This document shows, one piece after another, positions 2,830-57,272 of a DNA stretch of 64,000 bases. A program made the translations under genes and the position numbers. Below the pieces are notes generated by a model. The model saw nothing but the letters and a program-made list of their open reading frames with translations, ran no database searches and was not told where the DNA came from. Each line of letters begins with the position of its first letter. The first letter of the stretch is position 1. This stretch comes from Lophium mytilinum (lineage: Eukaryota; Ascomycota; Dothideomycetes; Mytilinidiales; Mytilinidiaceae), in NCBI GenBank assembly GCA_010093605.1, contig MU004199.1, positions 379,609-443,608 of the forward strand. The letters are read 5' to 3'.

Positions 2830-3670
2830 TCACGCCTGCCAGTCCTTCGCCGTATCCTCCGCGCACCATCGGGCGATCTCCAGCAGTTCTTCTGTTCCTT
2901 GTCGGGCCTCGTCTGCCGGAAGATCCACAAGTTCGTGGATGCTTCTGAGGCCTTGTCCTGCGAGCGTTATGCGGAACCAAGCAAACAGGCGGTAGCGGAG
3001 GTCGTCGAATATCCCACGAGCACGGTCGAAACGCGAGGTTGGGTCCAGGGGCACACACCCGATGTCCAAAGTTCCGGGGGCTTGGTGCTGCTGGCGGTAC
3101 TCTTCCTCCCGAATCCAGGCGTCTTTGAACCCGAATTGGCTTCTGGTCAAGTCCAGGATCCACGAACCGTGACCAGGGATTGTGACTCTTACGACGGTGT
3201 GTGGGTAGGATGTCTGGCCCTCGTAGCTGTCTTCGCCCCAGACGACAGCAACTTGTTCTGCTATGACGCCCATCGAAAGAAGTTCGACTTGCACGTTGTC
3301 CTCGCCTCCTACGTACATTTGTTAGTATTTATAAGCATATCGTATGGCATAGACAGCCATAAGAAGACGTACCTTGGACTATATCCATCAAAATCTGCCC
3401 CATGACTTGTGGCGCGTCGTCGCAAAGATCGCGGTTCAGGATGGCTGGGCAGGCTGGCAGCGATCCCTCTCCCCACGGCCCCGTCCCAGGTCCAGAGGAA
3501 GCTGGCCATCTGGTCTCCCCATTGGCTACGAGGAGGCACATTTGCGGCAAGTCAGCTAGGATCCATGGGTCGATGTTGTGAGGGTTTATGGTTTCCAGGA
3601 CACTTTGCCAGGCTTCGTCAACAATCCTCATAACTCGTTCCCAGTGCTCGGCGTCGAATGGAGAAGACAT
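2830..3670 (-). CDS. QFG1: putative Cys-His-Asp papain-fold family protein
   Basis: Unrecognised paralogous family, working name QFG; predicted 258 aa. Exon 1 is 3373-3670 and exon 2 is 2830-3308. The 64-bp phase-1 intron has a GTACGT donor, a TACTAAC branch and a TAG acceptor. Candidate catalytic residues are Cys83 (DLCDDAP), His136 (YPHTVVRV) and Asp152 followed by Gln157 (LDLTRSQFGF). The ATG at 3670 was chosen because it gives an N-terminus like QFG2 and QFG16 (a helix with E-A-W-Q). No signal peptide or membrane segment is seen, so it is probably intracellular. It is divergent to QFG2, about 1.05 kb away. The enzyme-like triad is an inference; no function is known to me. Confidence 0.8.
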
Positions 3671-4719
3671 CTTGCTTGTAAGTGCGCGAGGATGTCGAGG
3701 AATAAGTGCGTTGCTGATGCTGCTTGTGAGGCTAGTCGTCGCGGTTGCTGCTGTTTGAAGCAGTTCGGAGGCGGTGCGCCACAATAAAGTCGGCACGGAC
3801 CCTCCACAATTGGGACACCTTCACCTCGTAGCTCAACATTGACCAGGGACAGTGAATATTACGTTAGGATTGCTCATGAATGACATCATTGTGAACACTT
3901 TTGAACCCCTTTGGTAGCCTTCACTCGAGAGGGATGTCTCGTAAAGCAGTGGCATCGACCTAGGCACATCTTATAGTACTATGCCTCAAATATAGGCACA
4001 CGTACTTGTTACCGCTCAGTTCTGATCCTGCTCGCTCAATACTACGATCAGGGGGTTCCTATGAGAGTCAGCCAACTGGTCAGACGGTGATTCATTCTCC
4101 ATTGCTAGAAAAAAAGATGAGCATATAGATATACCACCGCTCCTATCTTAATCTTGCTCATTTATTGCCACTGTCCGGAGGACCCCAGTTACCAAGCACC
4201 TAGCTGGCCAAGGAGCAGTCTGATCTCCACTGCTTGAGGTTTGACATCGTGCCTAGACTTCTGAAAATCATGGGGGTACCCCAATCACTGGCGAACGGGT
4301 CTGCACAGGCTTCTAGCCCGTCTCTGTACGAAGAGCCATCTTTGGACGACTTTAGACATCTCACGCATTTAGTATCCGCGTGGTATGGCCCGTCGCTGTG
4401 CTCGACTAGTAAGTCAGAGAGACCTTCAAATGCTTCACGATGCCGGCATCATGCGAGCGTCAGTGACGTGATATGAGCGTGCGGCTAGCGGGACTGGCTC
4501 GGCACTGCGTCCAGGCGCTAGAATAGGTGAAGAATGTGTTCCCCATAGTCGAGATACAAGAGTTGAGATGGAACCCCTCATTGTGGCCGTCAAAATTCAA
4601 ATGTCTTGGCGCCACGTGAAGTTGATCAAAACAGAGCGCACGCACGCCTTCCACCAACCGGCAACATAACACACAGCGTCGAACCGCATACTCACATAAT
4701 CACTTCAAGATCCTTCAAA
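3671..4719. promoter_or_regulatory. Shared upstream region of the divergent pair QFG1/QFG2
   Basis: About 1.05 kb separates the two start codons, so both promoters must lie here. Weak copies of the repeat core occur near 4045 (CAGGGGGTTCC) and 4170 (CACTGTCCGGAGGACCCC). No gene is visible. The assignment is positional; I see no convincing TATA box. Confidence 0.4.
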
Positions 4720-5643
4720 ATGCCTGCTTTCACCGCCATTCCAACCCCCAGCGCCGCCCACTTCGAACGCATCGTCAAGCAGTTCGTCGAGCCGGCCTGG
4801 CAGCAAGTCGCGGGCGCCATCTTCAACGTCGTCGTCACGTCCTGTCAGGAGCAGCCGGAGAAGGAGAGGAGAATGTGCATAGGAGTAAGAGGCCGTCGCT
4901 TTGCCTCGCGACGCGTGCTGAAGGTAAAGGGCAAGGTCGTGGGTGTTGGGCGTGGGAAGAACACCGCCGTGGGCCTGACCGAGGAGGAGCTCAAGGCCAT
5001 CCTCAACTACAACGCGTGTGAGGCCGCACCAAAGATCTTGGGACCGATCGTAGAGAAGATCTTCCAAGGTATGCCATCGTCCCTACTGTCTGTGTAGTTG
5101 ATGGGGCCAAAGATGCTAATTACTGCCATAGACTACGCCAAAATCGAAGTCGCCACGATGCCCGTCGGCCCCCGCCTCGTCGTCCAGTATCCCGAATTCG
5201 AGGACGAGGACTTCTACCTCCACTGCGTCTTCAAGATCACGTTCAAGAACGGAGAGGTCTGGTTTTTGGACCTGACGTACAGCCAGTTCGGCTTCGACTC
5301 CTGCTGGACGCCAGAGCGGGAGTACCGTACCCTCTACCAGAAGAGGGGGGTAGGTGCGGAGAGAGACAGCTGCCGCCCCGTAGGACAGAACTACGGGATG
5401 TACCCGCCTGAGGAACCGGAAGACCGCCGCCGCCTCAATGACCATTTGCGAGAGTCTTTGAACTTTGACTTCTCGTTGTTTTGCCTCGAACACGACAAGA
5501 ACATCCACCAAATCGTCAACGACGGGGGAGACAATGGCCAAGAACTCAAGGCCTTGTTGGAAGACCTGGGAGAGTGTGCGGACAACGCGGTGACGCACTG
5601 TAGGGAGGTCGAGATGGCAATGGCGGATCTCGCGCATGGTTGA
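4720..5643 (+). CDS. QFG2: putative Cys-His-Asp papain-fold family protein
   Basis: Predicted 286 aa, same subfamily as QFG1 and QFG16 (N-terminal V-E-P-A-W-Q helix). Exon 1 is 4720-5068 and exon 2 is 5132-5643. The 63-bp phase-1 intron (GTATGC donor, TAG acceptor) sits at the family position just after the Cys helix. Cys100 (NACEAAP), His147 (YLHCVFKI), Asp163 and Gln168 (LDLTYSQFGF) fill the conserved places. A basic insert at about residues 47-80 separates the N-terminal helix from the Cys helix. The stop codon is the first three bases of a 177-bp tandem duplication, and the duplication is followed by the large 171-bp array. No localisation signal is seen. Confidence 0.8.
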
Positions 5644-5995
5644 CCCTTCAGGACACCCCCGCAGGCCAGTCGCTATTGCTCTTCGTGTCTGTTCTTGCTT
5701 CAAACTCGCTCTGGTCGGTTCTAGTAGGCGTATGCCGAACGGGGGCCAGATGTCTTGTGCGGGCACCAACACAAGGCTAGGTTGATCTGGTCTCGGTGCT
5801 CGGTGGAAGTTGGTGTTTGACCCTTCAGGACGCCCCCGCAGACCAATCGCCATTGCTCTTCGTGTCTGTTCTTGCTTCAAACTCGCTCTGGTCGGTTCTA
5901 GTAGGCGTATGCCGAACGGGGGCCAGATGTCTTGTGCGGGCACCAGCGCAAGGCTTGGCTGATATAGTCTCGGTGCTTGGCGGAAGTTGGTGTTC
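5641..5995 (+). repeat. 177-bp direct tandem duplication, two copies
   Basis: Copy 1 is 5641-5817 and copy 2 is 5818-5995. Both begin TGACCCTTCAGGAC. I count about 12 differences over 177 bp, mostly transitions, so this duplication is far younger than the neighbouring arrays. Copy 1 begins with the QFG2 stop codon. The length is close to the 171-172 bp unit of the adjacent array, but I see no obvious sequence kinship. Confidence 0.9.
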
Positions 5996-6000
5996 ATCCT

Positions 6001-6143
6001 GTAAGACGCTCAAGAGGAGGGTGAGGTGGGGTGAGGAGAAGGGGGTTTCTGGATAGTCTGATGGGTACACGGGTTCACCAGGCCGCACGGACTGAAGAGG
6101 GGGGCATTGGTTCTCTGGCTTTACGCCGGACACTGAAGTCTTC
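6001..6143 (+). repeat. Decayed copy of the sequence at 2473-2625, inverted
   Basis: The plus strand here matches the minus strand of 2473-2625, including GGGTACACGGG, CACCAGGCC and GGGGGCATTGG followed by CTCTGGCTTTACGCCGG. The two copies lie just 3' of QFG2 and QFG1, each in the polarity of its gene. They may be the tail of an ancestral unit duplicated together with the genes. No coding potential remains. Confidence 0.6.
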
Positions 6144-6159
6144 CATGAGCTGCTTTGCA

Positions 6160-11700: not shown

Positions 11701-11713
11701 CTTAGCACCCACC

Positions 11714-32269: not shown

Positions 32270-33124
32270 ATGCCCCCTTTAAAAGACCGCATACTGCAAC
32301 GACTGCATCTAGCAAAGGCGATTTGGGATTCGCTCCGAGTAGCTTCCCATCCAACACACCTGATCCGGATCGTGGTCTCAAATCCTGTAGAGCTGCGAGG
32401 AATCAACGCAGAGAATGTGGCAGAGCACGGCTGGGCCATGCCAACCGACCTCAGCCCGGATGACAAAGCCGCTATCCTCACGTACGGTGGCTGTGACCAA
32501 AGTTGCTTCATTTTCATGAAATTACTCCCGTACATGCTTGGAGGTAAGTCTATCTCAAGCATCGGCCCGCCTTAACTTATGGTCTTACGGGCTGATGCTT
32601 CCTAACCAGAGGACTGGCAGGAGATCTCTTGGTATTGCATCGACCCCGTCCCATCCCGCAACGTCTGGGTCGGCACCGAACAAGAAAACCTCGACAACGC
32701 CCAGAGCGAATTCTTCCACAGCTATTTGCGGCTTGTTCTGAACGATAGCACCGTCTTTGCGGTGGATTTCACGCCCGAACAGTTTGGGTGGCCATTCGAG
32801 GTTATGGAAGCAGGCAAGTACGACAGGAAGTACAGCGCACCCGCTACAAGCCCTCAGCGAGTAGACTGGCTCCGCGAAGAGGCTGAAATGCCACCGGAGA
32901 CCTTCGATAAACTGTTGCGGGACTCTTTGCTGAGCTCTGTTCTGAGATTATGCGGCCATGTGAAGCCAACGGATGACTTGTTTGCGGGCATGTTTGAGCA
33001 ATCTATCGCCAAGAGTGATGAGACACAACGAGCTTTACTGGAAGAGATTGGGCAAGATATCCGAGACTTCTGCCAGAGTTTCGATAAAGAGAGATGTTCC
33101 GTGCCAATCTGCCAAAGGGATTGA
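32270..33124 (+). CDS. QFG5: putative Cys-His-Asp papain-fold family protein
   Basis: Predicted 262 aa, subfamily with QFG9 and QFG14. Exon 1 is 32270-32543 and exon 2 is 32610-33124. The 66-bp phase-1 intron has GTAAGT, CTAAC and CAG. Cys75 (YGGCDQSC), His128 (FFHSYLRLVL), Asp144 and Gln149 (VDFTPEQFGW) are in place. The subfamily mark in exon 2 is E-D-x-x-x-I-S-W followed by R-N-V-W-V-G-T-E, and a W-P-F-E-V-M-E-A run after the QFG motif. No targeting signal is seen. It lies in tandem behind QFG4 and converges on QFG6. Confidence 0.8.
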
Positions 33125-34935: not shown

Positions 34936-35787
34936 CTACGCGGCGGACCTGTGTTGGCGCAACAGTTCTTCTACTTGGCTCGAGAAATCGTACAGAACTT
35001 TCTCAAGATACGTTTCAAAATCGAGCAGGGAGAGCGAGTCCCAGGGCTTTTCGTAGAAGTTGTTGACAATGAAGGCTACAAACAGGTCCTTGGCTTTACG
35101 AAGCCACACGTGGCGGGGGTCTTTCAGCGTGGTGCCGACTTCGTGAACTCCTAAGATCCGGAAGTTGCACTGTTTGAAGAAGTCCTCCGTCATGAGGGTC
35201 TGTTGGCGTCCGAACTGATAGCACGAGTAGTCCATATAGTAAACTTTGCCATCATTGTCCGTAATTCTCAGCACTTTGTGGAACGTCGTCTCTTGGTCAC
35301 ACTCCGTGTCGTCGTCGGTCCAGGCGTCTCGCGGAATCCACTTTTCTTCTCTCTTTACCACCAATTCTTTGACGTCCACTAGGTCCTTGTCGAGCATGGA
35401 GGCCACAGAAGGTCCCAAAAGTGCCACGGCATCGTCACATTGCCAGGCGCAGAGGGCAGCCCTTCTCTCCAGCACTTGCTCAGAGTTCGCGAAGTATTCC
35501 GGCGGCAGAGGGTAGGTGTTCACGCCAAGCTCGGTTGGGTATCCGGCGCGGAGGGTCGATATTGCGAAGGTTTTTCCTCTCCCATCTTCCCTCAGCCACA
35601 GCGGTCCCGAGAGATTTCTCTCAAAAGTCACCTCTCGGTACAGTAGGAAGATTTCTCTCAACACTGCGTCGGCGAAGAGCAGCCGCTTTGGCAAGGGGTC
35701 GTTCCAGCAGGGGCAGAGTAGGGGCGAGGCGGAGGAGCAAAGAGGGCAGGCGGATCCCTCCAGAGAATCGTACAGTAAGGTCGTCAT
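34936..35787 (-). CDS. QFG6: intronless family member with a Cys cluster
   Basis: Predicted 283 aa from one exon. The usual phase-1 intron after the Cys helix is absent; the frame runs straight through S-M-L-D-K-D-L. Cys117 (AWQCDDAVALLG), His170 (TTFHKVLRI), Asp186 and Gln191 (MDYSCYQFG) fill the family positions. Unique to this copy is an N-terminal cluster CPLC...CPC at residues 14-27 that could bind zinc or form disulfides. The start is the ATG at 35787; the frame extends upstream but without another ATG. It is divergent to QFG7 across 598 bp. Precise intron loss suggests recombination with a cDNA, which is an inference. Confidence 0.78.
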   Translation of the reverse strand: MTTLLYDSLEGSACPLCSSASPLLCPCWNDPLPKRLLFADAVLREIFLLYREVTFERNLSGPLWLREDGRGKTFAISTLRAGYPTELGVNTYPLPPEYFANSEQVLERRAALCAWQCDDAVALLGPSVASMLDKDLVDVKELVVKREEKWIPRDAWTDDDTECDQETTFHKVLRITDNDGKVYYMDYSCYQFGRQQTLMTEDFFKQCNFRILGVHEVGTTLKDPRHVWLRKAKDLFVAFIVNNFYEKPWDSLSLLDFETYLEKVLYDFSSQVEELLRQHRSAA

Positions 35788-36385
35788 CGTGAGAACTAGA
35801 GCGCGGAGGGTACGAGCGCGTGTACGATATGTCAAAGAAAGAGGCAATTCGCGGAGTTCTGACAGCTGGGAGCAAGAACTATTCGACGAAGAGGAAACCA
35901 AACTGGGCACGCAGCATCAGGAAAAGGTAGATTTATGCGAGCCCCACTTTCGCTAACTACCTACATTGGGCCCCTGACACCATTTTGGGTGAAGGTACAG
36001 AGAGTATAACCATTATTGCCTTCGGACCTTCACCCAAACGGAGTGAAGACTGTGGCTCCGATATGCTGAGACGCCTTCACTGCCTATCTATGGTCAAGAT
36101 AGTGCTTTGGTGATTTATGTCGGCAAATTATTTGGTGAGCTCGAGACCGGATTAGGCCGTGCGCCCAAGCAATGCGTTGATGGGTCACGTGGACAGTAAA
36201 TTCTCAATCGTGAACGTTCTCATCCGGGCGCGAGAACAACAGCCAGCACGTACAGCATCACAATCCTCCAACGCCTCTCCACGTCCCATCCTACACTCTC
36301 TCCTATCCTACCGTAAGACGCCCCCCTTTGACGTTGTCTGTACTCCCTCCGACCTTCGTTTTGAGTTCCGCCAAAGACCATCAGC
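35788..36385. promoter_or_regulatory. Shared upstream region of QFG6/QFG7 with a 13-bp inverted repeat
   Basis: TTTGGGTGAAGGT at 35984-35996 is repeated in inverted orientation at 36026-36038, with a 29-nt spacer containing AGTATAACC. Just before it is a repeat-core remnant, GGGCCCCTGACACC. The perfect 13-bp arms in a bidirectional promoter could be a dimeric regulator site or a hairpin. Confidence 0.4.
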
Positions 36386-37280
36386 ATGGAGCGTCCCGGT
36401 CAGGATGACGAAGCTAGCCCGCAAGAGACCCTCGAGAAGTACGTCAAGATGTTAGACGGAAAGGAAGAGGAGGAAGACTTGTTGTCTGATACGGAAAAGA
36501 AGTACAAATACACTTTCTGTGTGCTCTACACTGTACAGCTGCTGTGGAAGATGATTGCGCCGAAGATCAGCACCGCCGACATAAGGCAGATCCTCGTCTG
36601 GGAAGACCATGTGGTTGGGCTCGTGAGGAACACACCCCCTGCGTTTGGACGGCCGTACCCCAAAGGCGCCAAGGAGCAGCATGAGGCAGCGCTATCAGCT
36701 TACCGACAGTGCGACCTGGCCGTATACCTGACCTTCGATCTTCTCCAGCGCGTCCTGAACGGTGAGTAAATCTACTTCGATTACCCAGTGAGTACAGCTG
36801 ACGGCTGTGCTTTTAGACAAAGCGGAGGTCACTTGGTGCCACTTCCACCCCATCCCAACTCTCAAAGTCTGGCGCAACGACCCCAGTACCCGCGAATACA
36901 CCCCCTATCGACACGTCGCCTTCCGCATACGAGTCGGCGCCTTAGACCTGATATACGACCCGACGTACGAACAATTTGGCTGGCCGCACTTCTTCTATCT
37001 GTGGTCCGAGTGTGTAAAGTTGCGCAGCAAAGACAACAAAGAGCCCAAGCTAGTCAACGTTGCTGAAGAGCGGGCAAAGTTCCAAGCAGGCAGCTTCTAC
37101 GAGAAGCTTCTAGAGTGGACGTGGAGCGCGTTGAAAGACTGCGCTGAGGGGGATAAGTTCACATTCGGTAGATTGCATAGACTGAGCCAGGCAGAGAGAC
37201 AGGAAGCGTGGGATCACGTTGTAGAGGCCGTGGGGATGCAGATCGACATCCTTTGCGCACTACAGGACCTCACAGCGTAG
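36386..37280 (+). CDS. QFG7: putative Cys-His-Asp papain-fold family protein
   Basis: Predicted 279 aa, subfamily with QFG12 and QFG13. Exon 1 is 36386-36761 and exon 2 is 36817-37280. The 55-bp phase-1 intron has GTGAGT, CTGAC and TAG. Cys109 (AYRQCDLAV), His158 (YRHVAFRI), Asp173 and Gln178 (YDPTYEQFGW) are in place, with His to Asp 15. The N-terminus is acidic (residues 5-36, several E and D runs), and the Cys helix is preceded by a Y-P-K-G linker like S-F-P-x-x in QFG12 and QFG13. It is divergent to QFG6. No targeting signal is seen. Confidence 0.8.
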
Positions 37281-37783: not shown

Positions 37784-38677
37784 ATGTCATCTATCGACCC
37801 TAAGCTCCAGGAGCTCGACGCTGAGCTGGCTCGCGTCTGGCGTGGTATCCTCGAAATCATCTTCGAGCCCTGTGTTCCGTACGTAAAGGAGACCGAAGGC
37901 GGGTTCTTGGTCTCTGGGAAGGAGGAAACGGGCTACAAGTTAATCACGAAGGATGAAGACCTCCTAACCTTCATCATGGCCGACCAGTGCGACGATGCTG
38001 CTCAAGTTCTGTATGATATCGTACAGAAGATTTTCGGAAGTACGTGCAAAGCATGCTCGTAACATAGCCTATCAAGGAGCTGCGCTAACAAACTCGTTGT
38101 AGCCGAGGTGCAGATGACGCAAATAGAGGTCAAGCCAAAACGAGCAGCCCTCTGGCCCAATCGAATCAATAAAGCTCGAGTTCGCGGGCATATGGTTCTT
38201 CTCGTTATGCTCCCGGACAGAACGCAACTAGTCGTTGACCCAACTAAGGCACAATTTGGATTCCAGGAGTGCGGGTTGTCGCTACAGAAATTTCTGAAAG
38301 ACTACGGTGTGAAGGGTGACGAGACCATTCCTCTCATCTTCGACCGGGAAACACATCTGCAGGAGATGGAAATTGCCTCTAAGAAGATGGTAAAAGCCAT
38401 GAAGAATATGGAAGAAGCCTTTGCGTCCCTTGGGAGCTTTGTACCTGGGCCCCAATACCGGCCCCAAGACCATTACGAGTTATTTCAACACCTCCGCGAG
38501 CGCTTGAGCGAGGCATACGATGTCTGGCGTGCCGGTATCGATGATGGATCGAGTGTTGTGGAGGTTCTCAGCCAAGAAAACGTAGGAAGGGAGAGCTTCC
38601 GCAAAGCTATGTTGGATGGAGCGGAGAAAGCGGTCAAGGACTCGAAGGGAGGCAAGCTGCCCCGTTTTCTTCCATAG
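37784..38677 (+). CDS. QFG8: putative Cys-His-Asp papain-fold family protein
   Basis: Predicted 276 aa. Exon 1 is 37784-38039 and exon 2 is 38103-38677. The 63-bp phase-1 intron has a GTACGT donor and a TAG acceptor. Cys69 (ADQCDDAAQVL), His115 (RGHMVLLV), Asp131 and Gln136 (VDPTKAQFGF) fill the family positions. Exon 1 is short, and the C-terminal helical region is long, with an M-x-K-x-M-K-N-M-E-E run at about residues 183-195. QFG10 has the same short exon 1 and is the nearest relative by layout. It is in tandem with QFG7, QFG9 and QFG10. Confidence 0.82.
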
Positions 38678-39535: not shown

Positions 39536-40378
39536 ATGGAAAACCAGTCCGGAACTACCCCGTTGCGCGATCGAGTCACCCAGAAGTTGCACGCCGCATA
39601 TGAGATCTGGGAGGTTTTTGCCCGTGCGTCCTTCGGACAGCGCATAATTCAAGTCGAAACCTCGACGCCAGAGGAACTGCGAGCAGTCTGGGCAGTCGCC
39701 GAGGGCCAATATGGGTGCGCACTACCCGAGGAAATGTCACAAGAAGACCAGCTGGCGTTTCTATCATTCAACACTTGCGACGAAGTGTCATACATCTTCC
39801 TCGAGGTGCTGAAGCACATGCTGGGCGGTAAGCGCACTTCACATACTATTTTGACAGGAAAAGGGCTAATAACACCTACAATAGAAGACGTAGAGTCTAT
39901 CTCCTGGTGGCGCATCCGCCCTAAACAATCACGCAAAGTGTGGATTGGCATGGAGGATGACGCCGAAGAGCTTCCCTACGACCATGGCCACCTCCGGGTC
40001 CAACTTGTAAACGGGACGGTTCTTATACCAGATTTTACGGGCGCCCAGAATGGCTGGCTATTCGAAGTGTTGGAGGCGGAGGTATACTACAAGACGCGCT
40101 GTGAGGACGGGACGGAGCCCTGGGTGGTACCTGCAGAGGAACAAGAGCATCTTCCGCAAAGCTATGCGGCGCAGCTTCGCGAAGTAGTGGTTAAAGCAGT
40201 TGACAAACTGTGCTGGGAGAACACCGAGGACATAGTAGAGGCGCCTGAAGAGGAGAAGATAGACATGAAAGACATGTTGGAAAAGGTCCAGGAGGCGGTG
40301 AGGCATTTCTGTGTACGTTGGGGGGAGCATATTGTGAGAATTATTCAGCAGAGGGTAGCAGGACCGTCAGCGGGATAA
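39536..40378 (+). CDS. QFG9: putative Cys-His-Asp papain-fold family protein
   Basis: Predicted 261 aa, subfamily with QFG5 and QFG14 (EDVESISWW, then SRKVWIGME in exon 2). Exon 1 is 39536-39827 and exon 2 is 39885-40378. The 57-bp phase-1 intron (GTAAGC donor, CTAAT branch, TAG acceptor) has no in-frame stop, so intron retention would also translate. Cys81 (NTCDEVSYIF), His131 or His133 (YDHGHLRV), Asp147 and Gln152 (PDFTGAQNGW) are in place; the motif reads QNG rather than QFG. The C-terminal third is acidic and helical. No targeting signal is seen. Confidence 0.8.
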   Translation: MENQSGTTPLRDRVTQKLHAAYEIWEVFARASFGQRIIQVETSTPEELRAVWAVAEGQYGCALPEEMSQEDQLAFLSFNTCDEVSYIFLEVLKHMLGGKRTSHTILTGKGLITPTIEDVESISWWRIRPKQSRKVWIGMEDDAEELPYDHGHLRVQLVNGTVLIPDFTGAQNGWLFEVLEAEVYYKTRCEDGTEPWVVPAEEQEHLPQSYAAQLREVVVKAVDKLCWENTEDIVEAPEEEKIDMKDMLEKVQEAVRHFCVRWGEHIVRIIQQRVAGPSAG

Positions 40379-41837: not shown

Positions 41838-42681
41838 ATGCTTATCTCAGACGCAAACCTCGACGCAATGCACACCTTCTTCGACGACCTCTGGCGCGAA
41901 GTGATCCCAACCCTCCAACCCATCCACCCGCCGTTCGCGAAGAAAGACACCAAGGGCTTCAAGGTGTCAAGAAACCCCCGCGCTGGCTACACACAGCTGG
42001 CTGAAGGCGACGAGGATCTGTGGGCGTACCAGAATCGGCACCAGTGTGACAAGGCAGCGTACGTGATGTACCCGGTAGTCGTGAAGGTTCTTGGAGGTAT
42101 ATTGCACCCTTAGCAGACGCTTTGCGCTAAACAACCCCATACTAACGTTCATGTGCTTAGACGAAGTAGAGAAGGTGGAGATTGCCTACCTCTGGGTCGA
42201 GCCCGTTCGCCTCATCGAGGAGTGGATCGACATGGACGGAGAGCGCCGCCGTAGACACACTGTGATCGTATACACGCTGAAAGATGGCCGAAAGCGTGTC
42301 ATTGACCCTTCGAGGTCCCAGTTCGGCATCAAAGACGTGAAGAAGTCGTACCACGAGTACCTAGATGCCTACGCCCCTGCTACGCCCCCGGACCAGCCGC
42401 AATTGATGACATTTGGAGGATACGCAACGTTCCTGCGGCGTGGACTCGGAGACGACAAGTCGTGGCTACAAGAGCTCTTCTTCTACAAACTTCTCGCCGC
42501 CAATGTTACCATTACGTACAACAAGTGGGAAAGGGAGTACATTCAGGGGGGTATTAGTGCTGTGGATGTACTCGGAGGGGGTCAGGTTGAGGCGAAAGAG
42601 GGGTTGTCAAAGGCGATGAAAGAGGTCACGCTGCGTGTGAGAGAGATGGTAGATGCAGGGAAAGCGTCGATGAGCAACTAG
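41838..42681 (+). CDS. QFG10: putative Cys-His-Asp papain-fold family protein
   Basis: Predicted 259 aa. Exon 1 is 41838-42096 and exon 2 is 42161-42681. The 64-bp phase-1 intron has GTATAT, CTAAC and TAG. Cys70 (HQCDKAAYVMY), His119 (RRHTVIVY), Asp135 and Gln140 (IDPSRSQFGI) fill the family positions. The N-terminus matches QFG8 in length and in the D-D-L-W-R-E-V-I type helix. The ATG at 41838 is preceded by a C/A-rich leader and gives the family-length exon 1. No targeting signal is seen. Confidence 0.82.
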
Positions 42682-44482: not shown

Positions 44483-45562
44483 ATGTCTACGCTATCAAAG
44501 AGCAACTTCGCCGACGCTCGCTATGGCAAACCAGCCATCGTGTGTAGTGTTCACGACGTCACCAACATGGGTGCTCGCACGGCTTCCCGTTGCCTCTGCC
44601 ATGTCGTATCTGCCTTCCGCTGGCTCAATGGCCCAGTGCTAGCTGTCTGGGAAGCTTTCGAGTCGAATTTCCTCCGTCTAGATCTCTCCGGGCCACAGAA
44701 AGACAGGATGTACCACATCTTTCTCACGATGATCACGAAGCGACCCGCAGAGCCCTGTGTCAGAGAAGCGCTCTTCTCCGCACTGGATCGTTGGCGCGCG
44801 GTGCAGACTCATGAGCGCTTTGGGCCAGCAGCGACGTTGTTGCGCGGTCTGTTGTGCAAGGTTTTCTTGCATCGAAAACTGGATGGTAAGACGCATAGAA
44901 ATTCATCAATAGCACGTAGACTGATATATGGGTTAGTTCCTGTTGCCAAGATCGAGCAAGCGGCATATGTCGTCGAAGCCGCGGAGCTCCCCCACTGGGC
45001 TGCCATCACAAAGAAGATGCCATCGGGTATCTTCGAAGGATTTCCAGAGGATAGGCTAGTGATCGTTCCTGTCATCCTAATCACATTCGCCGACCACGAC
45101 TCGAATACCGTCGTCTTCGCTCCCCTTGGGCCGCATCTGGGCCTCCCAGCCGTCTTCCAATGGTCTGACTTTGTGAAGGTGGTTTCCAAGACGGCGCAGA
45201 AACCGAAAACCATGGACCTTGAAAGCTGGTATGATCAACACTGGACACCCATCTGGACGAAATACTTGTTGGCCGAACAGAACGAGAAGCTTGAGAAGGA
45301 GAAACTCGAGAAGCAGCAGTCTGGGAAGGGGCGTAAGGACGCAGCGCGCGATGTAGTTGCGGAAAAGGAGAAGGAGAAGCGAGTTGTGGCACTCTCTTGG
45401 CACAACAAGCTTGTATGGCATGTTGAATCGTGGACGACGCGAGTGGAAGGTCCTACCTCGGAGAACAAGTTTGATTGGATGGAGACCATGGCGGACGACA
45501 GATTTGTGGTTTATGCGAGGAGACTGGTGGCCAGGATTGAGGATGCATTGCAGGAAGATTAG
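44483..45562 (+). CDS. QFG11: divergent family member lacking the triad, probable pseudo-enzyme
   Basis: Predicted 342 aa, the second longest member. Exon 1 is 44483-44885 and exon 2 is 44937-45562. The 51-bp phase-1 intron (GTAAGA donor, TAG acceptor) sits at the family position and contains no in-frame stop. Aligned to its relatives, the Cys of QCDDA is replaced (R-F-G-P-A-A), the His is lost (V-P-V-I-L-I-T-F), and L-D-M-S-G-A-Q-F-G-L-P becomes F-A-P-L-G-P-H-L-G-L-P. Fold and layout appear kept while chemistry is lost. A lysine/glutamate-rich, coiled-coil-like insert lies at about residues 245-290. The frame is intact, so it may act as a non-catalytic partner; that is inference. Confidence 0.75.
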   Translation: MSTLSKSNFADARYGKPAIVCSVHDVTNMGARTASRCLCHVVSAFRWLNGPVLAVWEAFESNFLRLDLSGPQKDRMYHIFLTMITKRPAEPCVREALFSALDRWRAVQTHERFGPAATLLRGLLCKVFLHRKLDGKTHRNSSIARRLIYGLVPVAKIEQAAYVVEAAELPHWAAITKKMPSGIFEGFPEDRLVIVPVILITFADHDSNTVVFAPLGPHLGLPAVFQWSDFVKVVSKTAQKPKTMDLESWYDQHWTPIWTKYLLAEQNEKLEKEKLEKQQSGKGRKDAARDVVAEKEKEKRVVALSWHNKLVWHVESWTTRVEGPTSENKFDWMETMADDRFVVYARRLVARIEDALQED

Positions 45563-47783: not shown

Positions 47784-48728
47784 CTAAACCCTCTCTCCAC
47801 GTAGCCCCTTCCGGCCCCCTTTCTTCAAAGTCGGCCCCCAAGCGTCTATCAGGGCAGCCACTCCCTCTCCAACAAACTCCGTCATCTTCTCCTGCATCTC
47901 ATCTCTCTCCTTCTTCTCCATCTTCTTCATCTTCTCGAACATCGTCTTCTTATCCCCGTAAACTTCCGTCACCCCACCTGCCATAACTTCCCTCACTTCC
48001 GCCCAAAACCCCGTGAAATGACCCACTTCCGGCTCTTCGTCGACCTCATTGAGGAGGCAATCGTGCGCGTCTTCGAACTTCACCTCCGGAACCACCGACG
48101 TCGTGCAGCCCAGCTGCTCAGCCGACGGGTCCGCTATGAGGCAAAACCTCTTGCCACCACGTTTCACGCCCCCACGAAGCTTGGCCACGCTGTGTCGGAA
48201 GATTGTGTAGTCTGGGGAGCTCTCGTCCTTAATTCAGATCTTCTTGATGTACTCCTCCTTTGGGATGAACGTGGACCATTTCACGACTACGGTGCCTATA
48301 GCCACAAGCGTTAGTTGTTACTGAATGATACAATGACGGATTATCCACCTACCCTTCAAGATCTCCTGCAGCAGCTGCAAGCAGAGCGCCACGGACAAGT
48401 CACACTGCCTGTAGGCCACTAGGGCCACCTTCTGCTCCTCCGTTGCCTCCGGAGGGAACGAGCCGCCCGTGAACGCAAGCTCTGCGTCCCTTGCTAGGCC
48501 CAGGATGCTGCCGGCGGACTCCTTGGCGATGATCTTCTCGACGTTGACGAGGGATACGCGGCGCAGCACGGTCTTGCAGAGACGCACCACAGACTCGGCC
48601 GTCATGGCCACGGCGTTGTAGTCTTTCGAGTCGAGAGGTGGAACTTCCGCGTCCTCGTCCAGCTTGTCCAGGAGTTTCAGCCCTTCGGCGAAGGTGGCGG
48701 CGCGTTTGGGGTGCTGGGCTTCGGCCAT
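47784..48728 (-). pseudogene. QFG12: family member with an in-frame stop in exon 2
   Basis: Same subfamily as QFG7 and QFG13. Exon 1 is 48353-48728 and exon 2 is 47784-48295, with a 57-bp phase-1 intron (GTAGGT, CTAAC, TAG). Cys109 (AYRQCDLSV) is intact in exon 1. In exon 2 the frame meets TGA at 48234-48236 after EEYIKKI, then continues open with the His (FRHSVAKL) and Asp/Gln (ADPSAEQLG) parts. Conservation beyond the stop suggests recent inactivation, a sequencing error, or readthrough; I see no intron that would remove the stop. As written the product would be about 145 aa with only the N-terminal half. Confidence 0.7.
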
Positions 48729-49289: not shown

Positions 49290-50484
49290 TCAGATCCTCG
49301 GCCCATAGTGCAAGCCCACTCTACCTTTCTCCGTCAATGTGCGCTCCCAGCTGTCGCGGGCTGTTTGCACCTTTGCTCCCACCTCCAGCCAAAGACTCGT
49401 GCACGCTACAACCCGGTCTTCGAAGGACAAGGCCGCTAGGTGGTCTAACAGGCCCTTTCCTTCCACTCGATAACCCAGCCAAATCTCCTTAACAACAGTG
49501 CGTACGCTCGACAAGAAAGAAGACGGGGGTGAGTTGATTCTTTCGTTTGAAGGCTCGACGGCTACCAGATCTTCGCCTTTATAGCTGCGACGTGCCACAA
49601 AGCTTTTCAAGTCGGAGACAAGCTCCCACCAGCCCATCTGGCAGCCAGTCGGATCCAGAACATAGCTCCGGCCACCAATATCCACTCGGATAACACTGTG
49701 ACGGAATAGTTTGTGCTCAGGTGTGTCACCGCTCTTGACCCAGATTTTTCTTCCGATCACTGGAGTATCCACCTTCCACCAGGTGGCTTTGCCTTTCTTA
49801 TTCGTCCCATAGTTAGAGATCTGTAGACCAGCGATTGCCCTTCTATTTGGGAAGCAGCTTACCCCCGAGGAGCTCTCCGAGTACATCCACCCAATTGAAA
49901 ACAGCCGTATCGCACTCTCGGAATGCTACTAGTGACCGTTGCTCATCCAACGGCATTCCTTGGGGAAAGGATCCTGCCTTGAAGGCGAGCTCGGCCTGCT
50001 CCGCCATCAATTCGTCCGCCTCCGACTTCACCTGCTTCGTCACTGTGAGAGTTGATGTCTCTCTCGTCGTCAGCATGCACAGCATGCCGAGTTCTCGGAG
50101 AACGGCGCGCACAGAGCCATTCTCCCCTTCAGCCTCAGGTTCCAGCGCCTGTTTTCCCTCAATGAGCTTTCTCGGGTCTTCGCTTTCTTGGACGCGGCGT
50201 TTTTGGATGTCGGTTAGCTCGCCTAGGCCTTTCGCGGGATCCATTCGGGCAGTTTGTACGGCGGTAAGGTAGCGCGCGGAGAGGGCCTGCGTGATAGCTG
50301 GTTCGCGGAGGGTTGCGCGCGATGCGCCGTTTAGAGAGAGAGGGAAAGGTTCGTGGTCGATATCGTGGATGTTGCGCGTGCTGCGTTGAACTTCGCCGAA
50401 TGAGGGCATCCATAACAAGTCTGGCCGCACGGGCCTTGTGACATTGAATTCCCAGTCGGAGAATTTTAGACTTTCACGCACCAT
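49290..50484 (-). CDS. QFG13: long family member with extended N-terminus
   Basis: Predicted 374 aa, the longest member, subfamily with QFG7 and QFG12. Exon 1 is 49863-50484 and exon 2 is 49290-49792. The phase-1 intron is 70 bp with GTAAGC and CTAAC; its acceptor GAAAG is unusual, but it is the only one that keeps the family frame (L-G then G-K-A-T-W-W). Cys191 (FRECDTAVF), His239 (FRHSVIRV), Asp254 and Gln259 (LDPTGCQMGW) are in place, with His to Asp 15. About 130 extra N-terminal residues have no recognisable domain. The start at 50484 is the first ATG; a later one (residue 26) is possible. Confidence 0.75.
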
Positions 50485-50676: not shown

Positions 50677-51503
50677 TCACTCTTCTTCCAAGCCGCACCA
50701 CTCGCAGAACCTCTCCACCCTCTCCCTCACGCACTCCATCAGCATACCCACCGCGGCCTCGCGCTCTGCCCACTTCTTCTCGACAATATCGTCCATTGTT
50801 AGGCCAGTCTGCTCGGTGTACTTCGCGATACCTCTATTGATAGTTTCTTGATAAAATGCCGGGAATGAATTTTGGCCCTGCCTCTTTGGCACAGTCCGCG
50901 ACGTCAATTCGAACCGGTGCTATGGAGCTATCACGGTAATCGTCGTAGTACATCTCGATTCCTGTGATAGCATACGGCCAGCCGAAATGCCCCCCAGGGA
51001 AGTCTACTGCCAGCACTTTCTCGTCGACGTCGATCTGATAGTGGGTGTGGTCGAAAAGTACATAGGGAGTCTCTTCGTTTTCGGTGCCGATCCAGATCTT
51101 GCGGTGCTCACGCGGGCGGAATCTCCAACAGGTGATCGAATCTATGTCGTCTATGATAATACCAATTAGCACCCCCCTGACATCGGCAAGTGTACTGCAA
51201 GAATGTACCACCATGGTGCTGCTTCAGGAGGTCGTAAATGACGAAGGAGATTCCGTCGCAATCCCGCACCTGAAACAGCGCCAGCTCGTCTTTCGTGCTC
51301 GTGCCCTGAGGAAATGGCCGTCCGATCACCATGCCAGGGGTCTTCCTGTCCACGGCTCGAAGCTCGCCAGGCTGGGACGCATCCACGCTGATTATAAGGA
51401 GAGGGTGGGTCAACTTCCGCCCGAGCTTGTAGATCTCATAGAAGATTTTGATCTTCTCTGTAACGCGGTAGAAGGGAGAGGAGTACTTCGAATCGTCTGC
51501 CAT
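50677..51503 (-). pseudogene. QFG14: family member with a frameshift near its C-terminal third
   Basis: Subfamily with QFG5 and QFG9 (DDIDSITCWRF, then HRKIWIGTE). Exon 1 is 51209-51503; exon 2 starts at 51151 after a 57-bp phase-1 intron (GTACAT, CTAAT, TAG). Cys82 (VRDCDGISF), His133/135 (FDHTHYQI) and Asp148 (VDFPGGHFGW) are present, but the conserved Gln is His. After CAKEAG the frame runs to an early stop at 50834. The expected helical tail (FPAFYQETINRG to FCEWCG) continues in another frame to 50677. The shift lies at about 50860-50895. It is either a decayed gene or a sequencing error. The intron carries a repeat core. Confidence 0.7.
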
Positions 51504-51737: not shown

Positions 51738-52587
51738 ATGTCATCCACAACCTCCTCTCCCGACTACGACGAGAACGCCGCCTCGCTGATCTACGAGATC
51801 TTCCTGGCCATCCGCCCGCAGTACGCGCCATTCCGCCTGACCGCCAACACCTGGATGAACGCCGTCGTGCCGGCCGAAGACAACTCGTCGCAGACGGTCC
51901 GATACTACTACTACAAGGCAGAGTGGGCGACCGAGTGGGTGCCGCTAGACCTCGACCCCAAGATCCTCCACCAATTCTTCTGCCTCGACCAATGTGACGA
52001 CGCGCCCGTAATCCTAGGGCCGATAATTAACGAGCTCCTTGGCTGTAAGTCTGTCCAGTTCCGCTGACAAAGCCTGATACTGACATACATCTGCAGACAA
52101 AGACTCGCCGGAAGTGTTCTCTGTGTACGTCCTGCCAAAGCTCTGGTTCGTCACGGAGGAGAAGCCCCTGGTAGGGAAGAACGGACTGCGGAGGGGGCAT
52201 ACGTTGGTGAGGATTGGGCCGAACGTCCTCGACATAACGGGTGGGCAGTTCGGGGCTACCAAGCTTCGACTGTCGGAAGTGGAGTACCGGCGGGAGAACG
52301 CTGCGTCCCAGTACGGAGAGGGCACCAGCATGAGCCTAGAGCAGGCAGCGTCGTCGCTACCCACCAACCGCACAAAGGCCGACTATTGGAACCCGCTGTT
52401 CACTCGGCTCCGCCGCAATCTTGACACTGCCTTCAAGGCGTGGATGACAGATCGCGGCCTGACGAAGGAAAAAGTAGTTCTTGACCCCGTCCGTCGCCAA
52501 GAAGTGGTAGAACTTTTCCGCAAAACCGCCCAGATGACTAGGGTGGAGTTCAACGTGGAGTACTGCCTCGGGGGCCTTTCTGGGTAG
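51738..52587 (+). CDS. QFG15: putative Cys-His-Asp papain-fold family protein
   Basis: Predicted 265 aa, closest to QFG4. Exon 1 is 51738-52044 and exon 2 is 52097-52587. The 52-bp phase-1 intron has GTAAGT, CTGAC and CAG. Cys86 (DQCDDAPVILG), His137 (RGHTLVRIG), Asp148 and Gln153 (LDITGGQFG) fill the family positions, with the 11-residue His-Asp spacing found only here and in QFG4. A Y-Y-Y-Y run lies at residues 56-59. It is divergent from QFG14 across only 234 bp. Codon use is C-ending and even, suggesting a functional gene. Confidence 0.83.
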
Positions 52588-53832: not shown

Positions 53833-54633
53833 TCATAAAGAACTCCGAAACTTCCTTATCTCACCCTCCGCGCTAGACTGGAGGGTCTCTCGCAAGGCCT
53901 TGATCTTCAGCAATGCTTTCTCCTTTAGCTCCTCATTCCAAAGGTCCGCGGCCTCCTTCACAAGCTGGTGAATACTGGTGTCTTGTTCGACGAGCCACAA
54001 GTACAAGAAGTAGTCTTCGAACACCTTTTCTCGCAAGGAATCGTACAATCCAGCCGCTTCTTTCCGTTCTTCGTACAGCGCATCCATAGAGCGACGCTGG
54101 TCGAGCTCAGCATCCTTCTCGTTCTGCCACAATCGTCGATACACACTCTCGCGCATCCAGCACGGGAGCCCGAACTGCGCCCCGCTCATATCCAAGATCC
54201 ATGTCGTGCCATCATGGAAGGTGACCAGGACCACCGTATGGCCGTAACGGGGCTTGTCGCCCTGATTGTTGTACAGGACTGCGAATGGTGGGCGGACTCG
54301 GAGGGTCAGGATCTCGAGTTTGGCATGACCGGCGAAGATCTCCTCCAAGATCAGCCCTATAACACGCGGGGCTTCTTCGCAGGCATTCCAGTTAAGGATC
54401 GCTTTGGCGTCTTCTGGTTTGAGCTCGGGAGGTAGCCAGCCCAGACCGAAGTCTTTGACTCCCACCGGTAGCCCCTTGACGCGGATGTTGCGTCGCCATG
54501 AGGACTTTTCGAACCTGAAGGAAGTAATCTTCAGAGGGAAGAGTGACTTCAAGATGGCCTGCCATGCGGGTTCGAGGATGATTGTCACCATGTCGGCCCA
54601 GTGGCAGCCGTCGAACTGAGAAGACGAAGACAT
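53833..54633 (-). CDS. QFG16: intronless family member
   Basis: Predicted 266 aa in one exon; closest to QFG2 and QFG1 (L-E-P-A-W-Q helix, and KAILNWNACEEAP against KAILNYNACEAAP). The family intron is absent; the frame continues E-I-F-A-G-H-A-K-L-E-I. Cys85, His132 (YGHTVVLVTF), Asp148 and Gln153 (LDMSGAQFGLP) are in place with normal spacing. Because its closest paralogs keep the intron, this looks like a clean intron loss or a retro-copy; no poly-A tract or target duplication was noticed. The C-terminus is helical and charged. No targeting signal is seen. Confidence 0.8.
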   Translation of the reverse strand: MSSSSQFDGCHWADMVTIILEPAWQAILKSLFPLKITSFRFEKSSWRRNIRVKGLPVGVKDFGLGWLPPELKPEDAKAILNWNACEEAPRVIGLILEEIFAGHAKLEILTLRVRPPFAVLYNNQGDKPRYGHTVVLVTFHDGTTWILDMSGAQFGLPCWMRESVYRRLWQNEKDAELDQRRSMDALYEERKEAAGLYDSLREKVFEDYFLYLWLVEQDTSIHQLVKEAADLWNEELKEKALLKIKALRETLQSSAEGEIRKFRSSL

Positions 54634-56351
54634 AAAGGTTGTTTGATTGAAGCGCGTCTAGTTTTCCTGGTGGTGGGATGGGGGTGGTGTGGAGGTTGTT
54701 TCTTGAAGAATACTTCTCAGGGAGCCCGTTACCTATGGACCTTTCATGATGATCGAGCACAAGGTGAATGAGCACCATTTTCCGTACGCTATTCCATCTC
54801 ATATTACATCCCTCTCATTTAGGCGCTGTAGAACGAAGCATTCGTACCCTCTAATTTGAAAGATTTCAAGGGGCCCCTTACGGCGACGACTATAGAACAA
54901 ATGAATAGATTAGAGTCTGTCGCTGGCGCTTCCATATTAGCTCTTCAATAATGATGAGACTGTAAATGAGTCGCAGTTTGAAAGCAACGCTTGAGACGCG
55001 CTTAATCTATATCCGCTCTGCTCCGTTTAAAGCACCGTCCGGAGGCCGATGGCTCAGGATTTCCAAGTTTGTAAGAAGCAGCCCAGTGTCCGCGAGGATT
55101 GCACAGTCCCCAGCGAGCCGTTGCAAGTGCTCATCGCTATCCTTATCCAACTGCATAGCGCTTCAACTCGAAAATGGGAGTGATTGTTCGTGGCGAGAAC
55201 CCGCAACCTCCTGACTTACCCCCCAGCTTCCCGGCAAGCGTATATAGGTTTGTTAACAAGGAGCGATTAGGGTTCGACGTGCCATGTTCGTATGTGATGT
55301 GTGAGTGCCCCAAGCAGTAGAAATCGAGTTACCTCCTGACTGACCGGCTTCCTACCTGCTGAGCTTCTCCAAACAGTGGCAACGAGCGTGCAAGAGTGGC
55401 GCTCAAGCGGTAGGATGTATATGTGTGTGAATCTTTCTTACTCCGGAGGTGCGAGTGCTACCGCCGCAGGTATAAGGCTTCCTAATTGAATGCAGTGACG
55501 ACCGCGTGTTGAGCTCCGGGTGGAGGGCTCAGGGGGAGCAATAGGAGGTGGAGGTGGATTCTTAAATCACCGTTTGAGCCCGCGCAAACAGCCGCTATGG
55601 AACCGTCGTGTGTGGATCCGACAGATATGGTGTTCTTTTCGAAGGTCTCTGCCGCTTGGGCCGGGAATCAGGAAAGGAGAACGCAAGATGATAGGGTCGA
55701 GCCTCCCTAGCAAGGTGACGGACGCTTGCAGTACAAATGCTGCTTAGCTATGCTCCAGGAGGTATATTTAGTAAAGATGCTGGTCAGAGTCTCAAATTGC
55801 AGCCGTGATGAGGCAAACTTGCATGACGTCGTGGTGGGCAACCCTGAGGGCCCGTGCACTTCACTGAACGATGCCACAGCAACAATAGCAGTCACGTATG
55901 TTTATCGGGCTTCAGCAATTTGGCTGTATCACTGGCAGCATATTTAAACTATCTGGAATGTCGTTGGCAAGCGCATTCAAGTCCACGTCCTGGAAGATCT
56001 CAATTCTACGCGAATGTCAGCCGCAGAGGTCCCCAGACCCCATTAAAAGACCTTATGTGCACGAACTTACATAGAACACCAAACAAAGCTTGAGAAGTGG
56101 TGAGCTGTCTATAGGCTTTAATGTGCACCAGTATTACTACAATAAAAGGGCTTTAGCATGTCGCGAAAGCCTGCAACAGCCAGAGGGTCGTCAATAGTAG
56201 CATAGGGCAACAATCACAATTGAGAGACTATTTTCTAGCGCGGTTTCGCTTATCGTTGCTCAACTTGGCCATGTTCAACAAGTCTCGTCTTCTCACGAGC
56301 ACCTCGTCCTTCTAGCCTTTACAGCTACTTCTCATTACTCGCACAGCGATA
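54634..56351. other. Gap between the divergent QFG16 and QFG17, no gene
   Basis: About 1.7 kb with weak core-like segments at about 54870 (GGGGCCCCTTACGGCG) and 55025 (GCACCGTCCGGAGGCC) in opposite orientations. No coding region or RNA gene is convincing. Promoters of both genes must lie here. Confidence 0.4.
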
Positions 56352-57272
56352 ATGCCTTCGTTTCCCCCTTTTGCTGTGCTGGATGCTTGCGGTCATGAAG
56401 GTGTATGTGACTGCCTCGATTCCCTGGATTACGCCAACGAGACCCCCGTGGAGCGAAAGCAGAGGATGTGGATCCACCACGCTGGAAAAGCTCTTCAGAG
56501 CTGGTACGCGGCGTATGCCGAAAGGGTTTACAACTTCGAGATCGAGGTTGTCGAGGCAGCCGGCGAAGTGCTACACGTACATGGAATCGTACAGCCAATC
56601 GGCACCGCCAAGGCTCTGCCGGCATGGTTCCCAGAGCAGGAGAGGTTGCGGGTGCTGATGTTCCAGCAATGTAACTTGTCACTGGGGATAACGCGAGGGG
56701 TCGTACGGCTGTTTGAAGGTAAGTAGGAGAGGCTCATTGACTGCCATAATGCTAATTTGCGGTTCTCAGACTCCTACGACTCTCCCCTCACGCATGTCGG
56801 TATCCTCCGCGTCCAATCTCCCGAATTCGAACGGTACGTAGCCCTCCACCCCAGTTGTGGCATGGTAATTCAGAACAGTGACACCGACCACGTTTCCTGG
56901 ATAATGGTGACAAAGGATGGCACGGAATACGTACAAGACATCACCGGTGCTCAAGTTGGACTTGAGGCCGTAACGTACCTCAGGGATGATTACTTGAGCA
57001 GCAAGTGCGTTAGCGCTTGGAAAGCACGGGAATTTCCCGCCGATGCCGAGTGTGAGGCCTTAGTAGAAGCTGCCATCAAGGGGGACGAGCTTCAGCTCTT
57101 TCACGCACACGCTGGTCAACGATTTTTCGAAATTGTGAAGGCGTTCATGCACGAGGAGCAGGGGTTTCTGCACCTTGAAAATGGCGACTTCGAAGAAGCA
57201 CTCGTCAAGTCCACCACTCGAGTCTGGGACGGCATGGGCCTGTACATGGCTAGCCTCCCGACTAACGTCTGA
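56352..57272 (+). CDS. QFG17: putative Cys-His-Asp papain-fold family protein
   Basis: Predicted 289 aa, nearest relative of QFG3. Exon 1 is 56352-56718 and exon 2 is 56770-57272. The 51-bp phase-1 intron has GTAAGT and CAG. Cys107 (FQQCNLSLGIT), His163 (TDHVSWIMV), Asp179 and Gln184 (QDITGAQVG) fill the family positions. Both members of this subfamily carry a W-Y-x-A-Y helix in exon 1 and an F-F-E-I-V-K-A-F-M stretch followed by F-L-H-L-E-N-G near the C-terminus. The cysteine-rich start (residues 13-21, four Cys or His) is not shared. It ends the main cluster. Confidence 0.82.

Follow-up and report, generated by a model that had tools for sequence, protein, structure and literature searches.

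A clustered family of putative papain-like cysteine enzymes in the fungus Lophium mytilinum

The window analyzed here, a stretch of 64,000 nucleotides of contig MU004199.1 from Lophium mytilinum, carries a series of loci that share a Cys, a His and an Asp in an otherwise poorly conserved context, which raises the question whether these loci belong to a single gene family and, if so, which fold and which chemistry are likely to characterize its products.

A gene family of sixteen loci

Profile searches of the six-frame translation identified 16 loci, between 2.8 and 57.3 kb, with a two-part domain that consists of a Cys half and a His-Asp half (Table 1). With leave-one-out profiles, all 16 held-out loci were recovered; their Cys halves scored E = 7.7e-13 to 0.0075 and their His-Asp halves E = 5e-22 to 2.5e-5. 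The top non-family frame for the Cys half had an E-value of at least 0.78; for the His-Asp half, it was in 15 of the 16 runs the frame 50680-50919 (-), in which the shifted 3′ end of g13 lies (E = 0.00017 to 0.036); the remaining run gave a best non-family E-value of 2.2. The 16 loci are one real gene family, with a median pairwise identity of 16%; the closest paralogues, g03 and g16, are 45% identical. The introns in the window are short and of the GT-AG type, which, like the gene content, fits fungal DNA, and a phase 1 donor located just after the Cys helix is common to 14 of the 16 loci. In four paralogue pairs, the divergence at third codon positions exceeds that at second positions; in two of these (g04-g14 and g01-g02), it is only slightly above that at first positions. 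Saturation of the pairs precludes a dN/dS estimate.

Two copies appear to have decayed: g11, with an in-frame stop between its two parts, is probably a pseudogene, and g13 is probably broken since its C-terminal part lies in another frame. This agrees with the 14 intact triad-bearing members counted in the initial annotation, which listed 17 loci, 16 of them with the triad. The 16 loci recovered by profile all possess the triad, and the figure of 17 is reached only if ORF 44483-45562 is counted. This ORF is the highest of 94 non-family frames in the profile comparison and aligns, weakly, across the His-Asp hairpin (1 of 100 shuffles scored as high), with a chance-level E-value of 2.4 against the family HMM; it may be a distant relative that lacks the triad. 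The second of the 94 frames, ORF 43574-44107 (-), is nearly as unusual (2 of 100 shuffles as high), so that the shuffle test alone cannot settle membership; the default alignment of this ORF covers only a C-terminal helix, and it was dropped as a candidate. Three RING genes and an F-box-like ORF are found in the same window, and a satellite-like repeat lies near the clustered copies.

Table 1. Loci of the family and a possible additional member (positions within the window)
Locus	Position	Strand	Features
g01	2830..3670	-	Cys part 3374-3670, short intron, His-Asp part 2833-3303
g02	4720..5643	+	Cys part 4720-5067, intron, His-Asp part 5134-5640
g03	28946..29851	-	Cys part 29519-29851, in-frame intron, His-Asp part 28949-29464
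g04	30513..31296	+	Cys part 30513-30809, 49 nt intron, His-Asp part 30862-31293
g05	32270..33124	+	Cys part 32270-32542, intron, His-Asp part 32612-33121
g06	34936..35910	-	Intronless; longest tree branch; likely ATG near 35787; modelled core 35125-35700
g07	36386..37280	+	Cys part 36386-36760, intron, His-Asp part 36819-37277
g08	37784..38677	+	Cys part 37784-38038, intron, His-Asp part 38105-38674
g09	39536..40378	+	Cys part 39536-39826, in-frame intron, His-Asp part 39887-40375
g10	41838..42681	+	Cys part 41838-42095, intron, His-Asp part 42163-42678
Possible 17th member without triad	44483..45562	+	Val and Ala in place of His and Asp; Gly retained
g11	47784..48728	-	Cys part 48354-48728, His-Asp part 47787-48233; in-frame stop between
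g12	49290..50244	-	Cys part 49864-50244, intron donor at the common position, acceptor unresolved, His-Asp part 49293-49826
g13	50680..51503	-	Cys part 51210-51503, His-Asp part 50837-51148; C-terminal part in other frame (50680-50919)
g14	51738..52587	+	Cys part 51738-52043, intron, His-Asp part 52099-52584
g15	53833..54633	-	Intronless, complete, 266 aa; Cys85, His132, Asp148, Gln153
g16	56352..57272	+	Cys part 56352-56720, intron, His-Asp part 56772-57269

Conserved residues and predicted fold

The family alignment contains five invariant columns, among them Cys, His and Asp, which like the Gly at Asp+7 are present in 16/16 loci; a Pro column is uniform in the 14 loci where it is present, and Asp+2 is occupied by Thr (11 loci), Ser (4) or Pro (1). 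Over the 239 columns filled in at least 12 rows, the mean frequency of the top residue is only 0.33, and Trp reaches no more than 8/15 at its best column. The retention of the triad amid general divergence, which had been noted at the outset, is thus evident at 16% median identity, and the Gln five residues after the Asp, described as constant, is found in 15 of 16 loci, g13 having His. The Asp follows the His by 16 residues in 10 loci, 15 in three, 11 in two (g04 and g14) and 21 in g11, so that the earlier description (11 or 15-16) holds for all loci except the last. The Cys-to-His spacing, in a fragment count that leaves out the splice-junction residue in spliced copies, is 45-56 in 14/16 loci, close to the 46-56 proposed previously; the values for g11 (30) and g12 (59) are unreliable because the splice junctions are not resolved.

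The AlphaFold2 model of g15 is confident (pLDDT 90.9) and shows a papain-like core that is preceded by a helix and a beta-hairpin at the N terminus and followed by helices at the C terminus. In this model, Cys85 directly precedes helix 87-99, His132 lies in strand 130-139 and Asp148 comes right after strand 144-147, that is, the order typical of the papain-like superfamily (Cys at a helix start, His in a strand, Asp ending the next strand), as the initial annotation had anticipated. The model of the distant member g06 is only moderate (pLDDT 71.8) and is not independent of the first because nearly the same alignment stands behind both. The best Foldseek match in the PDB is human NTAQ1 in both cases (for g15, E = 0.025, probability 0.90; for g06, E = 0.033, probability 0.47), with TM-scores of 0.22-0.31 and rmsd of 7.7-18 Å; neither model has a PDB match at E ≤ 0.001, nor was anything found at this threshold in the viral structure library. 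The 50 matches listed for g06 include 17 entries for a single protein, NTAQ1, and a further 15 for papain-like proteins (Josephin-type, UCH, USP-like, cathepsin or Der p 1); among the 50 listed for g15, 44 are ribosome entries with a probability of at most 0.10. Josephin-type entries occur in both lists, ranked below NTAQ1 and with lower probability, and YopQ, not an evident papain-fold match, appears at positions 3 and 13 of the matches listed for g06 and at position 47 of those for g15. The structural check suggested initially therefore yielded the papain-like order of elements and the same best match for two members, through individually weak fold matches, and no confident match to a non-enzymatic fold was seen for g15 or g06.

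These weak fold matches, together with the loss of all three triad residues in ORF 44483-45562, the possible relative, are compatible with the view that Cys, His and Asp are structural or metal-binding residues of a binding family without catalytic activity. However, in the order of elements these residues are placed like a papain-like triad, and they occupy invariant columns, and among the readings considered here this appears to be the least probable.

Comparison with known families

NTAQ1 (Nt_Gln_amidase, PF09764), an N-terminal-glutamine deamidase, has the same Cys-His-Asp order as the family. Its triad, given as Cys28-His81-Asp97 (PMC4214742), has spacings of 53 and 16, in agreement with the Cys-to-His range of the family and with the His-to-Asp distance of 15-16 in 13/16 loci. 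The two differ in that NTAQ1 has Leu at Asp+5, where the family has Gln, and in that NTAQ1, a protein of 205 residues, starts only 27 residues before its Cys and so lacks the N-terminal helix-hairpin of the family. The hhalign comparison pairs the His-Asp hairpins of the family and NTAQ1 with a score of 20.15, which was equalled in 2 of 200 shuffles and by none of the 94 non-family frames cut at 260 residues; ORF 44483-45562 scores about as high against the family (20.11 cut, 20.44 at full length). The unmasked path also pairs the Cys with that of NTAQ1, at low posterior; the probability that hhalign itself assigns is 1.8%, and its global mode found nothing between the family and NTAQ1. Taken together, the models and profiles point, at low significance, to a possible fold kinship with NTAQ1. 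The best fold match in two members and the similar triad spacing could even suggest that these are true N-terminal glutamine amidohydrolases, orthologues or recent copies of NTAQ1 that feed the N-degron pathway. Yet none of the 27 rows used in the HMM searches (16/16 Cys parts and 15/16 His-Asp parts) matches PF09764, Gln replaces Leu at Asp+5, the g15 model has extra N- and C-terminal parts, and a single housekeeping reaction would hardly need sixteen diverged copies; orthology was not accepted, and this origin seems very improbable.

The papain-like Tox-PLDMTX family (PF15645), which includes SseI and has the catalytic domain of the Pasteurella toxin as a relative, has a set of conserved residues close to that of the fungal family. 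In the Pasteurella toxin, a Gln lies five residues after the Asp. The set is described as C, W, H, D and Q, in proteobacteria only according to the table entry for this family (PMC3482391); the fungal family retains C, H and D in 16/16, Q in 15/16 and a possibly equivalent W in only 8/15 loci. The His-to-Asp distance of 15 in the Tox-PLDMTX group lies within the range of the fungal family, whereas the Cys-to-His distances there, 38 and 40, are shorter than those in 14 of the 16 fungal loci. The systems of PMC3498931 and of cluster III in PMC10318531 likewise combine a Cys-His-Asp/Glu triad with amide or acyl transfer chemistry of the kind proposed here and have no HMM match with the family.

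Searches of Pfam, NCBIfam and PHROGs with single family rows gave only chance-level matches (best E = 0.032, 0.076 and 0.013, respectively), and no HMM match to any papain-like or protease family was found in these libraries with the 27 rows. The Pfam models of PF09764, PF15645, the transglutaminase core and NlpC/P60 gave no match at E ≤ 1, a range in which the HMMER filters discard most matches above E 0.1. The expected match to the transglutaminase core, NlpC/P60 or related clans accordingly did not materialize, and the comparison with NlpC/P60 gained no support of its own. Two PDB sequence matches, SG135 (E = 0.098) and phage gp10 over the His-Asp motif (E = 0.12), are weak and were taken as chance. 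Scans with two of the 16 members, which reach close relatives only, found no relative in viral contigs (g04 Cys part and g15), in genome contigs (g15) or, by tblastn, in phages and plasmids (g15); the sole locus returned, L001, has a short chance peptide in common and scores nothing with the family profiles. Nor did we recognize a description of such a fungal family in open-licence papers. Within these HMM libraries, viral, phage, plasmid and genome contigs and open-licence literature, the family is provisionally considered undescribed.

Predicted chemistry and function

Based on the above considerations, the loci probably, though by no means certainly, encode papain-like cysteine enzymes of an undescribed family, whose genes form a cluster of duplicates and whose products would mostly be cytosolic and act on amides. 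The earlier proposal of a fungal cysteine hydrolase, deamidase or transferase is in part supported, by the triad, the papain-like order and the best fold match to NTAQ1, but not by a significant match to a known family. In the putative mechanism, the His would deprotonate the Cys at the helix start, and the thiolate would attack an amide carbon, most likely that of a protein Gln side chain; an acyl-enzyme would form with loss of ammonia or an amine and would be resolved by water (as in a deamidase) or by an amine (as in a transglutaminase). The Asp would orient the His, and the Gln at Asp+5 could support the active-site loop or the oxyanion.

The best reading of the evolution of the family is diversification by birth and death, and since the would-be active site is kept while the rest diverges, the copies may have different targets. 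Clustered birth and death around a frozen active site is a setting that often marks conflict or recognition. A more specific and rather unlikely version is an arsenal of paralogous protein-glutamine deamidases or transglutaminases with an NTAQ1-like fold and a residue set near the C-W-H-D-Q set of bacterial deamidating toxins, mostly intracellular and directed at many targets, for example to recognize nonself or to ward off invading elements. If right, the assignment to papain-like amide chemistry would add a new eukaryotic enzyme family, invisible to the HMM libraries searched here, in which one chemistry serves many possible targets, and a eukaryotic counterpart of a chemistry well known in bacterial toxins.

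Papain-fold cysteine proteases or deubiquitinases would account for the Josephin-type entries in both fold lists, for the UCH, USP-like and cathepsin entries in that of g06 and, possibly, for the RING genes and F-box-like ORF nearby. However, Josephin-type deubiquitinases and clippases are weaker fold matches than NTAQ1 in both searches, there is no HMM match to them or to any other protease, and gene neighbourhood carries little weight in a fungus, so that a protease family, too, appears unlikely.

The mostly cytosolic location favoured for the papain-like enzymes bears on a further alternative, in which a host-associated fungus would secrete these enzymes or use them as effectors. The rapid divergence that surrounds an unchanging core and the clustering of copies near the satellite-like repeat would fit such a role, which we nevertheless regard as quite unlikely: in 14 of the 16 loci, a simple hydropathy scan, which is a crude test on unconfirmed start codons, detects nothing that clearly resembles a signal sequence after any in-frame ATG. 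In g03 and g04, upstream in-frame ATGs (one in g03, more than one in g04) are followed by a hydrophobic stretch, and hence not every copy need be cytosolic.

Members of the family and their genes

The window is eukaryotic DNA and, judging by its short GT-AG introns and gene content, apparently fungal; its other genes include F-box-like, RING, sugar-transporter, sulfatase and peroxidase genes. In a six-frame translation of the 64 kb, 16 loci (g01 to g16, numbered along the window) match both the profile of the Cys-bearing half and that of the His-Asp-bearing half; they lie in two groups on both strands (see the table). When each locus was withheld in turn and sought with a profile of the other fifteen, all were found (E 7.7e-13 to 0.0075 for the Cys half and 5e-22 to 2.5e-5 for the His-Asp half), with the weakest recovery for both halves in g06, an intronless member on the longest branch. 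The top non-family frame of the window scored E 0.78 or worse with the Cys-half profiles; with the His-Asp-half profiles, 15 of the 16 runs gave the displaced C-terminal end of g13 in this place and the remaining run a frame at E 2.2. Thus, the gene family proposed in the initial annotation is real, each of the 16 two-part loci being found by a profile built without it.

The median pairwise identity within the family is 16%, and of the 239 alignment columns with residues in 12 rows or more, five are invariant, with Cys, His, Asp and the Gly at Asp+7 kept in 16/16 loci and a Pro in 14/14. Gln at Asp+5 and Thr or Ser at Asp+2 are each present in 15/16. The Pasteurella toxin also has a Gln five residues after the Asp. 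The His-Asp spacing is 16 residues in 10 loci, 15 in three, 11 in two and 21 in one interrupted copy. The original count had been 17 loci, 16 of them with the triad; the 16 triad-bearing loci stand, and the seventeenth is represented only by an ORF within the cluster that is a possible triad-less relative, which would account for that count. This ORF has the top hhalign score among 94 non-family frames, equalled by 1/100 shuffles, and its alignment spans the His-Asp hairpin, where His and Asp are substituted and Gly is retained; the family HMM gives it only E 2.4. Another ORF, though nearly as unusual (2/100 shuffles), was not accepted as a relative.

An intron donor in phase 1 directly follows the Cys helix in 14/16 loci; 12 of them share the exact codon, and in g03 and g16 the donor lies one codon further 5'; g06 and g15 have no intron. 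A rule-based search yields at least one frame-consistent acceptor for 12 of the 14 donor-bearing loci and none for g11 and g12, and the introns span roughly 49-66 nt by the likeliest acceptor, several loci having more than one candidate. Because g11 carries a stop codon in frame and the reading frame of g13 shifts within the C-terminal part, 14 copies appear intact, the same number as initially annotated. Two of the 13 inner branches of the tree are well supported, so that the g03-g16 and g05-g09-g13 groups are resolved and the remainder poorly. The copies are old, strongly diverged duplicates.

Predicted fold and comparison with NTAQ1

The alignment behind the AlphaFold2 model of g15, a complete intronless member, has 27 rows of contiguous translations from the window and covers 16/16 Cys parts and 15/16 His-Asp parts. 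In this model (mean pLDDT 90.9, pTM 0.88), Cys85 is located two residues ahead of helix 87-99, His132 within strand 130-139 and Asp148 after strand 144-147; an N-terminal helix and hairpin precede this core and a helical part follows it. The first Foldseek match in the PDB is the human N-terminal-glutamine deamidase NTAQ1 (E 0.025, probability 0.90, TM 0.22, rmsd 8.9). Among the 50 matches listed, 44 are ribosome entries with probability 0.10 or less, Josephin-type enzymes occupy ranks 23, 29 and 39, and YopQ rank 47. The core model of g06 (18% identity to g15; pLDDT 71.8), built on a nearly identical alignment, again retrieves NTAQ1 first (E 0.033, probability 0.47); its 50 listed matches include 17 entries of this one protein, 15 Josephin-type, UCH, USP-like, cathepsin or Der p 1 entries, and YopQ at ranks 3 and 13. 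Neither model has a PDB match at E 0.001, and the fold kinship is accordingly based on the agreement of searches, not on one strong score.

At the sequence level, the family profile aligns His132-Asp148 with His81-Asp97 of NTAQ1 (score 20.15), a score matched by 2/200 NTAQ1 shuffles and by 0/94 non-family frames of the window truncated to 260 residues; among these, the ORF that may be a triad-less relative scores 20.11 when truncated and 20.44 at full length. Cys85 and Cys28 are likewise aligned in the unmasked path, with a low posterior; the hhalign probability is only 1.8%, and global mode returns no alignment. Pfam, NCBIfam and PHROG models give scattered single-row matches only (best E 0.032, 0.076 and 0.013, respectively), none to a papain-like family by name (the PHROG matches are unnamed), and no papain-like chain is among the PDB sequences matched by the family profile. 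A short H...D-x-S-x-x-Q-x-G stretch in phage gp10 stabilisation proteins (PDB 8eap, 8tvr; E 0.12) is considered a chance match.

The family is unnamed in these three libraries, we recognised no description of such a fungal family in open-licence papers, and no such cluster is among those named in the main-text section on the 21 newly recognised families of the 2023 papain-like classification. Provisionally, the family is considered undescribed and probably kin to known papain-like enzymes.

Putative chemistry and role

For NTAQ1, a reaction has been proposed in which the Cys28-His81-Asp97 triad liberates ammonia from an N-terminal Gln via an S-acyl intermediate (PMC4214742). Related enzymes with Cys-His-Asp/Glu triads include Gln deamidases, transglutaminases, N-acetyltransferases, N-glycanases and proteases (PMC3498931; PMC10318531), the last being the main rival identity for the window family. 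The papain-like toxin family Tox-PLDMTX conserves C, W, H, D and Q (PMC3482391), whereas the best Trp column of the window family holds Trp in just 8 of 15 rows. By analogy with these chemistries and with the Tox-PLDMTX residue set, amide chemistry on protein Gln is favoured over proteolysis. An invariant would-be active site with free surroundings, in clustered old paralogues, suggests one such chemistry aimed at many targets. In the boldest reading, the family may function in conflict, by analogy with the at least 13 bacterial toxin domains that fungi received by transfer, for which use in intraspecific conflict is considered possible in the 2012 survey (PMC3482391).

In a hydropathy scan of all in-frame ATGs, none gives a clear signal-like start in 14/16 loci, and a cytosolic location is suggested; g03 and g04, with upstream in-frame ATGs followed by a hydrophobic stretch, may have a secreted form.

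Features of the window (positions counted within it)
Feature	Position	Strand	Observation
F-box-like ORF	747-1301	-	weak Pfam match, E 0.0018, below curated cut-off
Inverted repeat	1538-1633 / 45722-45817		96 nt, 84% complementary, 44 kb apart; flanks ten of 16 family loci
Family loci, two	2.8-5.6 kb
177-bp tandem copies	5637-5994		n=2, 93% alike; begin at g02 3' end
Satellite-like array	6564-9022		diverged, period about 171 bp, several blocks; lies between the gene groups
Family loci, fourteen	28.9-57.3 kb
g03 ATGs	upstream of 29851	-
g04 ATGs	upstream of 30513	+
ORF not accepted	43574-44107
Possible triad-less relative	44483-45562
g12	49846-49925	-	open frames of Cys and His-Asp parts overlap across intron
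g13	51111-51223	-	same overlap
RING-finger genes	58505-63968	-	n=3
RING gene	58505-59314	-	two RINGs
RING genes	60412-61908, 62406-63968	-	paralogue-looking, long loop in RING
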